Shown here: piece after piece, positions 3,545-26,586 of the stretch
Position numbering within the stretch: position 1 is the stretch's first letter
How the letters are laid out: each line of letters begins with the position of its first letter
Assembly: GCF_032401055.1 (NCBI RefSeq)
Contig: NZ_CP135529.1
Coordinates: 4,772,501 to 4,836,500 of the forward strand
Direction: 5' to 3'
From: Tardiphaga sp. 709
GTDB lineage: Bacteria > Pseudomonadota > Alphaproteobacteria > Rhizobiales > Xanthobacteraceae
DNA: 64,000 bases
Made by a program: the position numbers and the translations under genes
Notes under the pieces: generated by a model
The model's database searches: none
What the model was told of the DNA's origin: nothing
Seen by the model: the letters and a program-made list of their open reading frames with translations, nothing else

Positions 3545-3961
3545 ATGCGTTTCATGGTGATCGTGCATGCAAACAAGGACACCGAAGCCGGCGTGATGCC
3601 GACGACGGAACTGCTGACCGCGATGGGCAAGTTCAATGAGGAGATGTGCAATGCCGGCGTGATGCAGGCCGGCGAGGGGCTACACCCGACGTCGAAAGGC
3701 GCGCGGATCGCCTTTACCGGCAGTGAGCCGGTGGTGAAGCAGGGGCCGTTCGATGTGACGCGCGATCTGATCGCCGGTTTCTGGCTGATCGACGTTGCCT
3801 CGAAGGACGAGGCGATCGCGTGGATGAAGCGCGCGCCATTTGCGGCCGGCGACGAGATCGAGATCCGTCAAGTGTTTGCGGCCGAGGATTTCGGCGACGC
3901 CCTCACACCCGAATTGCGCGAGAAGGAAGAGCGCCTGCGCGCGCAAGCCGCCAGGAAATAA
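3545..3961 (+). CDS. YCII-related DGPF-domain protein 1
   Basis: A 138-residue protein of the DGPF/YCII family (PF03795 type). It begins MRFMVIVHANKDTEAG and carries VVKQGPFDVTRDLIAGFWLIDV, where QGPF takes the place of the family-naming DGPF, followed by a DEAIAWMKRAPF helix. GGGAGAG precedes the ATG. Family members are ferredoxin-like-fold proteins of unknown activity and are usually encoded beside ECF sigma factors of the ECF42 type. The downstream gene is a paralogue, 27 nt away. No sigma factor is present nearby, which is atypical. Confidence 0.85.
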   Translation: MRFMVIVHANKDTEAGVMPTTELLTAMGKFNEEMCNAGVMQAGEGLHPTSKGARIAFTGSEPVVKQGPFDVTRDLIAGFWLIDVASKDEAIAWMKRAPFAAGDEIEIRQVFAAEDFGDALTPELREKEERLRAQAARK

Positions 3962-21666: not shown

Positions 21667-21852
21667 TCAGGCGAGTTGCAGCGAAGAAATCGGATCGCTG
21701 GCGGGGAAGCTGTCCATCAGCGCCTCGTTCAGCATCTCGTCGAGCCGGCGCCGGGCGGTCTGCTCCGTCGTCTCGAACGCCGCGAGTGCGCCCGGATGCT
21801 CGACGAAAGCGTTGAGTTTGATCCTCTCAGTGGTCGTTACCAGGTTGCGCAT
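21667..21852 (-). CDS. Small protein with SFPASDP motif
   Basis: A 61-residue protein without a signal peptide. The start at 21852 is supported by GGAGG at 21858-21862 on the coding strand. It is mostly helical and ends LDEMLNEALMDSFPASDPIS, the E-x-FPASDP motif I recognise from many short uncharacterised proteobacterial proteins. Function is unknown. It converges with the GlxA-type gene, with 6 nt between the stops. Confidence 0.65.
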   Translation of the reverse strand: MRNLVTTTERIKLNAFVEHPGALAAFETTEQTARRRLDEMLNEALMDSFPASDPISSLQLA

Positions 21853-21864
21853 CGCATCCTCCAT

Positions 21865-22019
21865 CGGTTGATGACGGTGTTTTGCGCCTCACGGTCCTTT
21901 CGGACAACGAATCGCATCGTTCAGAAACGGCCAACGACCCCGCGGTTTCCGCCACGCAAGCGGTTGTCCACTGAACCAACAGCCCTACCGAATTTGTTGC
22001 GTTCGGCGCCAATGCTCGC
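21865..22019 (+). other. Spacer before the nrdAB promoter
   Basis: About 155 bases with no supportable gene. I looked for NrdR boxes and found no convincing pair by eye. Confidence 0.3.
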
Positions 22020-22048
22020 TTGACACTTCACCGCAGGTCACACCAAAT
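22020..22048 (+). promoter_or_regulatory. Candidate promoter of the nrdAB transcript
   Basis: TTGACA at 22020-22025 and CCAAAT at 22043-22048 with 17-nt spacing. The -35 is perfect and the -10 is weak. Its position just before the riboswitch fits the expected transcription start. Confidence 0.45.
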
Positions 22049-22059
22049 GTAGACGTCAC

Positions 22060-22245
22060 GGTCCGCCCTGTCGCAAGACTTGGTGGCTAAGAGGGAAGCC
22101 GGTAAAGACGTTGTTTTGCGTCATATTCCGGCGCTGCCCCCGCAACTGTAAGCAGTGAGTCTGTTTCGATTGAAGTCACTGATGCGCAAGCATCGGGAAG
22201 GCTGAAACAGACATTGACCTGCGAGCCAGGAGACCTGCCGCGACA
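22060..22245 (+). ncRNA. Cobalamin riboswitch upstream of nrdA
   Basis: Conserved cobalamin-aptamer segments occur in the right order. GGTGGCTAAGAGGGAAGCCG begins near 22082. GCGCTGCCCCCGCAACTGTAAGC follows at about 22131-22153. GTCACTG, then CATCGGGAAGGC, lie near 22175-22203. The B12 box GAGCCAGGAGACCTGCC is at about 22223-22239. Adenosylcobalamin binding normally represses the downstream gene. Here the downstream gene is class I ribonucleotide reductase, about 130 nt further on. GGCGGA-TC-TCCGCC near 22296-22309 could belong to the expression platform. Confidence 0.93.
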
Positions 22246-22375
22246 CCAGAACGTCCATGGGCGGGGTGTCCCAGCGGTCGCTTGCAGGCAATGCCGGCGG
22301 ATCTCCGCCGTGTATTTTGCAGCGTCCTTTCGGCCCCAGCCCCCATTGCTTGATGCATCACACGGGGTCTTGCCG

Positions 22376-25309
<2,934 letters not shown>

Positions 25310-25331
25310 GGCTTGCTGCACCATACACAGT

Positions 25332-25433
25332 CCTCATCCTGAGGAGCGGCCTCTTGGCCGCGTCTCGAAGGATGAGTGACGACACACTCATGGTTCGAGA
25401 TGCCCGCTGAAGAAGCGGGCTCCTCACCATGAG
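25332..25433. repeat. Palindromic repeat pair between nrdA and nrdB
   Basis: Two hairpin units occupy the intergenic space. 25332-25376 runs CTCATCCTGAGGAG ... TCTCGAAGGATGAG around GGCC(N)GGCC-type arms. 25387-25433 runs CTCATGGTTCGAGA ... TCCTCACCATGAG around GCCCGCT/AGCGGGC. They are related to each other in inverted orientation and resemble short interspersed palindromes of Bradyrhizobium-type genomes. They may modulate the nrdA:nrdB ratio. Confidence 0.7.
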
Positions 25434-25461
25434 AGCCGACACAGAATTCAAAGGAACACCC

Positions 25462-26586
25462 ATGCTCGACTGGTCCGATACCTCATCCGCCCCCAAGGCG
25501 CCCGCCTTCATCCCGCTCCCTGAAACATCCATCGATCAAACCGGCCTCGGCACCATCGATCGCTCCGGCGGCCGCGTCTCGGTGGACGAGAAGCGCATGA
25601 TCAACTGCCGCGCCGACGTCAATCAGCTGCTGCCGCTGAAATACAAGTGGGCGTGGGAGAAGTATCTCGCCGGCTGCAACAATCATTGGATGCCCACCGA
25701 AGTCTCGATGCAGGCTGATATTGCACTGTGGAAGTCGCGCGACGGCCTCACCGAAGACGAACGCCGCGCGATCAAGCGCAATCTCGGCTTTTTCGCAGCA
25801 TCGGAGAGTCTCGTTGCCAACAACATCGTGCTGGCGATCTATCGCCACCTCACCAATCCGGAATGCCGCCAGTATCTGCTGCGACAGTCCTTCGAGGAAG
25901 CCGTGCATACGCACACGTTCCAGTACATCGTGGAAAGCCTCGGCCTCGATGAGGGCGAGCTGTTCAACATGTATCGCGAGGTGCCCTCGATCACCGAGAA
26001 GGCCGCTTGGGCGCTCAAGCACACCCAGCATCTCGACGATCCCGATTTCAAGACCGGCACGCCCGAAACCGATCAGGCCTTCATGCGCGATCTCGTGGCC
26101 TTCTATGTGATCTTCGAGGGCATGTGGTTCTATACGGGCTTTGCGCAGATCCTGTCGCTCGGCCGTCGTAACAAGATGGTCGGGATCGCTGAACAGTATC
26201 AATACATCCTGCGCGATGAATCGATCCACCTGAACTTCGGCATCGACGTCATCAACCAGATCAAGATCGAGAATCCGCACCTCTGGACAAAAGCGTTCCA
26301 GGAGGAAATCCGCGACATGATCCGCACGGCCGCCGAGCTCGAGGCGGCCTATGGGCGGGACACCATGCCGCGCGGCTTCCTCGGACTGAATGCGGCGCTG
26401 TGCGAAACCTATATGCACTTCATCGCCAACCGCCGCTGCGCGCAGATCGGTCTCGCGCCTGTTTTCAACGAGACGGAAAACCCATTCCCATGGATGTCGG
26501 AAGCGATGGATCTGAAGAAGGAGAAGAACTTCTTCGAAACGCGTGTGATCGAGTACCAGAACGGCGGCGCGCTGAACTGGGAGTAG
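25462..26586 (+). CDS. nrdB: Class I ribonucleotide reductase beta subunit, class Ic-like
   Basis: A 374-residue R2 protein that generates the oxidant for NrdA. By alignment with E. coli and Chlamydia R2, the metal ligands are E115, E146, H149, E219, E253 and H256. The first ligand is Glu, not the Asp of E. coli. The position of the radical Tyr (E. coli Tyr122) is Phe153 in [12 protein letters not shown], codon TTC at 25918-25920. Both features match chlamydial class Ic R2, which uses a Mn(IV)/Fe(III) cofactor and no tyrosyl radical. The C-terminal relay Tyr (Y365) is kept in [11 protein letters not shown] 25462 follows AAAGGA. Metal content is inferred. Confidence 0.94.

Follow-up and report, generated by a model that had tools for sequence, protein, structure and literature searches.

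Class Ic ribonucleotide reductases (RNRs) and their cofactor have been established for Chlamydia, as far as the accessible parts of two articles go (PMC8463856, PMC4118035). In the accessible sections of the second, a 2014 review, the Chlamydia beta subunit R2c is described as highly active with a mixed-metal centre only, roles are given to its residues W51, Y222 and F197, and the identity of the metals is said not to be readable from the ligand set of an R2 (PMC4118035). The same sections report that R2-like oxidases (R2lox) also bind Mn/Fe, that Mn/Fe in vivo had been shown for no R2c, that studies of R2c had been confined to the protein of C. trachomatis, and that the class Ic group was tied to pathogens and extremophiles (PMC4118035). 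The C. trachomatis R2 scaffold is described, again in a partly accessible text, as prone to mis-metallation (PMC8463856). The structure of the R2 of Saccharopolyspora erythraea has been reported as well (PMC7467353), and is described in the available passages of that article without metal identity.

Control of class I RNR genes by vitamin B12 is also on record. In the available portions of the respective sources, the nrdAB genes of Cutibacterium (Propionibacterium) acnes are described as B12-controlled (PMC3848588), and B12 control of Streptomyces nrdABS is attributed to Borovok 2006, as cited in PMC5962746.

This study concerns a locus of Tardiphaga sp. 709 that carries an nrdB gene of the apparent class Ic type together with a cobalamin riboswitch. 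The window, that is, the whole stretch of DNA analysed, comprises 64,000 nucleotides, and all positions refer to it.

The class Ic type beta subunit and its relatives

The nrdB gene (25462..26586; all genes, residues and leader elements given here lie on the forward strand) encodes a 374-residue class I RNR beta subunit, which matched the RNR beta equivalog NF005550 at 681.6 bits (cut-off 309) and PF00268 at 316 bits, as against at most 53 bits for R2lox models in the same family-model search. It is the single R2 detected in the host genome.

The first-pass annotation of this DNA had placed a Phe at the position of the radical tyrosine, in the motif EEAVHTHTF, had named a Glu in place of Asp as the first metal ligand, and had pointed to the same pair of changes in chlamydial R2. 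The open reading frame, the frame and the residues proved to be as claimed. The motif is present in the translation, Phe153 is encoded by TTC (25918..25920) and Glu115, where class Ia has Asp, by GAG (25804..25806), and the remaining ligands, namely Glu146 and His149 (25897..25908), Glu219 (26116..26118), and Glu253 and His256 (26218..26229), are all present in both the translation and the alignment. NrdB and the C. trachomatis R2c chain share 60% identity and are colinear over 340 residues, with the ligand equivalences E115=E89, E146=E120, H149=H123, E219=E193, E253=E227 and H256=H230 (Chlamydia residue numbers were taken from the printed alignment). Phe153 does fall at the radical position, opposite F127 of the C. 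trachomatis chain, where homologues of the class Ia type have Tyr, and the chlamydial chain thus has the same pair, F127 and E89. Also kept are W76=W51, Y248=Y222, F223=F197 and Y365=Y338, the last of which is presumably a radical-transfer residue.

Among the solved structures, the best match of NrdB was 6y2n, the S. erythraea R2 (683.9 bits, 85% identity), followed by the C. trachomatis R2 chains at 463 bits and then, with a drop to 151 bits, by the next group. At the very position aligned to F153, chain 2ani from the same list carries Tyr and 1syy Phe, so the register of the alignment is plain there. A radical tyrosine near a di-iron site, as in class Ia, was not found in NrdB, which has Phe153 instead.

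The sequence of NrdB supports its identification as a class Ic RNR beta subunit, a kind already known: the Phe/Glu pair, the complete ligand set, the residues of radical transfer and a similarity to Chlamydia R2c along the full length all concur. The Mn/Fe cofactor that the first-pass annotation proposed is, by homology, the likeliest guess. The lower iron and radical-scavenger sensitivity that it also expected is a published hypothesis about R2c.

The pattern EEHFEEH (the six ligands, with the Phe in fourth place) was found in 129 of 129 listed entries at least 77.9% identical to NrdB, a set that includes the window's own locus four times and at least six loci twice; the named carriers of the pattern belong to the Alphaproteobacteria, Actinomycetota and Acidobacteriota. 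Being common to all of these close entries, the Phe/Glu pair is neither a sequencing error nor a chance occurrence. Relatives from other Pseudomonadota at 60–70% identity had DEHYEEH in all 29 loci read (L195–L214, L216–L224), so that the combinations in this part of the tree are Glu with Phe or Asp with Tyr. The residues Glu, Thr and Phe at positions 115, 152 and 153 were kept in 40/40 aligned rows with Glu and Phe (E/F rows, which include Chlamydia and one haloarchaeon) and were different in 20/20 near rows with Asp and Tyr (D/Y rows). Positions 57, 79, 240 and 318 nearly separate the same two sets, and W76, Y248 and Y365 are invariant in the 40 E/F rows and likewise in the 20 Tyr-type rows. 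Glu as the first ligand is not diagnostic alone, since four distant R2s from another family of the order (L021–L024, family code f51, 27–29% identical) combine it with Tyr at the radical site; this mix was absent from the nearer relatives read.

Other records were observed in the same searches. A putative viral contig (L241, IMGVR_UViG_3300009703_001194, match 1971–2924) has an R2 that is 50% identical to NrdB and shows EEHVEEH, that is, Glu with Val, and thus lacks the radical tyrosine. Glu/Phe R2s were seen beside an annotated nrdA on plasmids of four halophilic archaea (L215, L262, L263, L264), and the R2 in Acinetobacter phage MD-2021a records (phage hits H31, H32) is 67% identical.

The Glu/Phe pair may have arisen once or twice, as the four trees disagree or are weak. 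NrdB is 65–66% identical to two near Tyr-type relatives, compared with 60% to Chlamydia R2c. In a quick tree, a branch with SH-aLRT 79 separated the E/F rows from the rest; after removal of the 7ail row, the free tree had three state changes, and one E/F clade had the higher likelihood (p-AU 0.762). A careful tree with a far outgroup gave two state changes and one E/F clade in 0% of bootstraps; in this tree Chlamydia was grouped with Tyr-type rows (98/92), and the outgroup joined inside the E/F rows with a branch length of 10. The careful tree with more taxa, built after removing columns 115, 152 and 153, separated the E/F rows from the rest by a branch with 58/39 support, a split seen in 48% of bootstraps. 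Two lineages were firm in it, the bacterial E/F lineage (99/96) and that of Chlamydia, haloarchaea and viruses (100/99), which has long branches. As one and two origins are both compatible with the trees, the transfer of Mn/Fe to NrdB by homology is likely, though uncertain. The Glu/Phe R2s of two Pseudomonadota from outside the class (L193 and L194, family code f94) stood among actinobacterial rows, and this placement suggests horizontal transfer.

The nrdAB operon and B12 genes of the host

The nrdA gene (22376..25309, with the ATG at 22376 as the inferred start) encodes a class I RNR alpha subunit of 977 residues with N-terminal ATP cones, which matched the equivalog NF005544 at 1725.3 bits (cut-off 965) and contains PF02867, PF00317 and two ATP-cone stretches. 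NrdA has cysteines at positions 379, 593 and 608 as well as the motif CxxxxxxCxxC at its C-terminus and YY at 909, all of which we take to be functional residues of an RNR alpha subunit. The spacer between nrdA and nrdB (25310..25461) holds an inverted-repeat-like element (CATCCTGAGGAGC...TCGAAGGATGAG) at 25335-25428, and a piece related to this element was observed at 3800 in the window.

Upstream of nrdA lies a full-length cobalamin (B12) riboswitch aptamer (22042..22256), which matched RF00174 at 129.9 bits (gathering 31.5) over positions 1–189 of the 189 in the model. The first-pass annotation, whose class Ic-like part stands, overlooked both this riboswitch and the B12-dependent RNR of the same genome. 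The aptamer ends 119 bases before the likely start codon, and the leader thus delimited (22257..22375) is the proposed expression platform. When folded as a single sequence, the leader paired a CCCC run with the GGGG that lies further downstream, ahead of the ATG (z -1.60), which hinted at a Shine-Dalgarno hairpin; the consensus fold of 13 sequences, obtained by aligning the leader with 12 relatives, differs from the single-sequence fold and has 0 covarying pairs, so that the hairpin is a possible platform only. A loose pattern revealed no NrdR boxes near nrdA in 21701–22400.

The host genome also encodes NrdJ, the B12-dependent class II RNR (G000:C1:658482-662267; NF005736, 2350.8 bits, cut-off 1737), as well as a MetH B12-methyltransferase domain and CobN. 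It contains five cobalamin riboswitches, which precede a TonB-type receptor gene, a second TonB receptor gene with an ORF cut short (its best model is the B12 receptor, below the cut-off), a short ORF with a cobU-type gene behind it, a metE whose ORF is cut short, and nrdAB. The sensor thus precedes the genes of both isoenzymes that do without B12, MetE and NrdAB. Both features looked for in a backup RNR were found: the nrdAB leader contains a cobalamin riboswitch, and the genome encodes a B12-dependent RNR. Together they point to an enzyme made under B12 or cobalt shortage rather than under iron or radical stress.

Distribution of the riboswitch, NrdJ and R2c

The riboswitch was found upstream of nrdAB in 42 of the 44 assessable R2c-positive genomes of the order. 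The search covered 45 genomes, namely all 15 from elsewhere in the order and, from the family, a selection of 30 out of 81 further genomes with a full-length R2c, in which high scorers predominate; 39 of the 45 had the riboswitch in the first listing, three more were confirmed afterwards, and G436 was left out of the count as its contig ends too soon. The exceptions are G413, with a divergent riboswitch only, and G064, with a riboswitch only downstream of nrdB. A scan of contigs yielded at least 580 relatives, the best 80 of which were kept and read. Of these 80, 67 loci were scanned and two were too short; the riboswitch lies upstream in 48 of the remaining 65 named loci (Alphaproteobacteria 31/37, Acidobacteriota 6/6, Actinomycetota 11/22) and is missing from 17, and some genomes may be in both this set and that of the order.

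A search with the N-terminal part of the host MetE revealed metE in the nrdAB flank of 11 of 83 loci (L075, L078, L079, L082, L083, L085, L087, L095, L100, L112 and L145), and metE is annotated near nrdAB on a Methylocella plasmid (L265). The metE genes of L075, L078, L082, L100, L112 (divergent) and L145 have a riboswitch of their own. Where metE and nrdAB stand together, they form a small neighbourhood of B12-free isoenzymes. At one locus (L154, G428:C6:1067332-1068451), nrdB is split over two frames with the riboswitch retained, and short nrdB remnants were seen in G379 and G237; we regard these as signs of gene decay.

A link between the riboswitch and class Ic in particular was ruled out by a control within the host family, the Xanthobacteraceae. 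All 15 Tyr-type class I operons tested there have the riboswitch upstream, two of these matches being weak (34.2 and 40.6 bits) and G443, G425 and G418 being left out of the control. The riboswitch therefore does not single out class Ic, and the B12-free backup slot appears to be filled by either enzyme type. In two of these operons, an alpha gene between the riboswitch and the Tyr-type nrdB was confirmed (NF006577). Outside the family, the riboswitch lies upstream of a Tyr-type R2 in G146 and G116 and only downstream in G005; none was found near the Tyr-type R2 in G154, G164 and four f51 genomes.

Of 296 genomes of the host family, 82 have an R2c of full or nearly full length, three more have a partial or split one, and two have remnants. 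R2c is present in 11 of the 18 genomes of the window's genus; in even draws, 19 of the 199 genomes from the order had a close R2c (82% or more), and 10 of the 398 from the phylum had an R2 that matched along most of its length with at least 75% identity. By this distribution, the R2c gene is accessory.

The occurrence of NrdJ was compared with that of the riboswitch. In the family, 77 of the 82 R2c genomes have at least three alpha-barrel matches among the matches listed, which corresponds to the pattern of NrdA plus split NrdJ in the host genome. Among riboswitch-bearing R2c loci with a searched genome, a B12-dependent RNR was found in 27/30. The riboswitch occurs in 27 of 39 genomes with NrdJ and in three of nine without it (p = 0.063); the corresponding counts were 11/13 and 2/7 in the Alphaproteobacteria (p = 0.022, kinship uncorrected) and 16/26 and 1/2 outside them (p = 1), and a tree-aware comparison contained only three independent pairs on starred branches, a number insufficient for testing. 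L120, with its upstream sequence cut off, and L107 were left out of this table. When any second alpha barrel was counted as NrdJ, the counts became 28/42 and 2/6 (p = 0.18), or 12/16 and 1/4 in the Alphaproteobacteria (p = 0.10).

Class-specific models identified the short second barrels of G493 (L094) and G497 (L114) as class I alpha and not NrdJ, and the long second barrels of G500, G505, G507 and G512 as NrdJ; G498 (L117) was grouped with G493 and G497 by its short pattern, and the remaining NrdJ calls were made by match pattern. G493 (L094, L277) and G497 (L114, L274) thus have a class Ic nrdAB and, in place of NrdJ, a short class I alpha of the NF006577 type. The riboswitch is kept without NrdJ at L084, L094 and L144 and likewise in G424 (94% complete, no NrdJ seen), and it is missing despite NrdJ in 12 of the 39 genomes and likewise in G413. 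G331, which is 99% complete and whose locus is also listed as L081, has NrdA, with neither NrdJ nor the riboswitch detected. The idea that the riboswitch is lost wherever NrdJ is lost thus found no more than a trend in these counts (27/39 versus 3/9), and the tie between the two is loose.

Proposed role and comparison with known systems

The gene, its residues, the riboswitch, NrdJ, MetH, metE and CobN are present in one genome, and the arrangement is conserved. We consider it probable that nrdAB is a B12-free backup RNR, probably with a Mn/Fe oxidant; the Mn/Fe loading, the repression by B12 and the backup role are what we infer from this arrangement. The nrdA and nrdB genes would encode an oxygen-dependent class I RNR with a beta subunit of the class Ic type, in which the metal centre itself is the probable oxidant, the radical-site tyrosine being absent. 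With O2, the R2c would most likely form Mn(IV)/Fe(III), as in Chlamydia, and the oxidant would act through the conserved aromatic chain on the NrdA cysteine. When B12, and hence cobalt, is sufficient, NrdJ would make the deoxyribonucleotides and the riboswitch would hold nrdAB down, with cobalamin binding lowering its translation or transcription. When B12 is short, nrdAB would be expressed and would take over from NrdJ.

The nature of the metals could be read differently. The oxidant may be metal-based yet di-iron or di-manganese, with the Phe merely removing the tyrosine radical; consistent with this are the accessible statements that a ligand set does not reveal metal identity (PMC4118035) and that the C. 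trachomatis scaffold is easily mis-metallated (PMC8463856), as well as the higher overall identity of NrdB to Tyr-type relatives than to Chlamydia R2c. We nevertheless think this unlikely, as positions 115, 152 and 153 hold Glu, Thr and Phe in every one of the 40 E/F rows and other residues in the 20 near Tyr-type rows, and as Chlamydia R2c, according to the available sections of the review, is highly active with the mixed-metal centre only (PMC4118035). R2lox proteins bind Mn/Fe too, as the same sections note (PMC4118035), but that NrdB is an R2lox, or a decayed R2 no longer serving an RNR, can hardly be credited: its top family is the RNR beta equivalog, far above the best R2lox model (681.6 versus 53 bits), an intact nrdA adjoins nrdB, the residues Y248, Y365 and F223 are retained, and sequence conservation extends over three bacterial phyla.

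The role of the enzyme is a separate matter. If nrdAB were the everyday aerobic RNR, with the riboswitch serving only for fine-tuning, one could explain the R2c without detected NrdJ in G331 and some other genomes, six of nine of which lack the riboswitch, and its absence from 17 of the 65 named R2c loci. The host genome speaks against such an arrangement, having NrdJ and a full riboswitch ahead of nrdAB. R2c is also absent from seven of the 18 genomes of the genus and is thus dispensable, and in three R2c-negative genomes of the genus with 99–100% completeness the only barrel matches are two of NrdJ strength. We accordingly give the everyday role little weight and retain that of a B12-free backup RNR.

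A broader proposal is offered tentatively, and we lean somewhat against it: the riboswitch might bring about a metal swap at a single essential step, with the cobalt-cofactor RNR giving way under cobalamin shortage to a Mn/Fe RNR that lacks the tyrosine. If true, this arrangement, found in soil alphaproteobacteria, actinobacteria and acidobacteria and not in pathogens, would be a common natural context for class Ic, and the Glu/Phe pair of this bacterial lineage is perhaps of separate origin from the chlamydial and haloarchaeal one. The class Ic residue pattern does occur in many environmental bacteria (at least 580 relatives, the best 80 read). The riboswitch context provides a testable reason for the use of the enzyme, and non-pathogenic hosts are suited to tests of Mn/Fe loading in vivo.

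Among the known systems, the R2c of C. trachomatis (PDB 1syy, 4d8f) has the same Phe for Tyr, the same Glu for Asp and the same six ligands, and the equivalents of its W51, Y222, F197 and Y338 are likewise kept in Tardiphaga NrdB, whereas the Tardiphaga locus differs by 40% of the sequence, the B12 riboswitch and the co-resident NrdJ. The S. erythraea R2 (PDB 6y2n) shows the same EEHFEEH pattern in an actinobacterial host. The Tyr-type nrdAB of the same family (G266, G349, G400 and others) has a B12 riboswitch upstream too, but has DEHYEEH, about 30% identity and a shorter distance from riboswitch to nrdB than the Tardiphaga locus. Streptomyces with nrdABS presumably also has a B12-dependent NrdJ in the same genome.

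In the open-licence literature searched, which was covered in part, no report was found of B12-riboswitch control of a class Ic RNR. As far as the accessible text of the sources shows, the nrdAB of Cutibacterium acnes likewise has a cobalamin riboswitch in the leader and NrdJ in the same genome (PMC3848588), and Streptomyces nrdABS likewise has a cobalamin riboswitch, in an operon that the title of the cited study calls class Ia, in contrast to the class Ic type here (PMC5962746). B12 control of nrdAB has thus already been published, and its combination with class Ic in the Tardiphaga locus is a modest addition to these systems.
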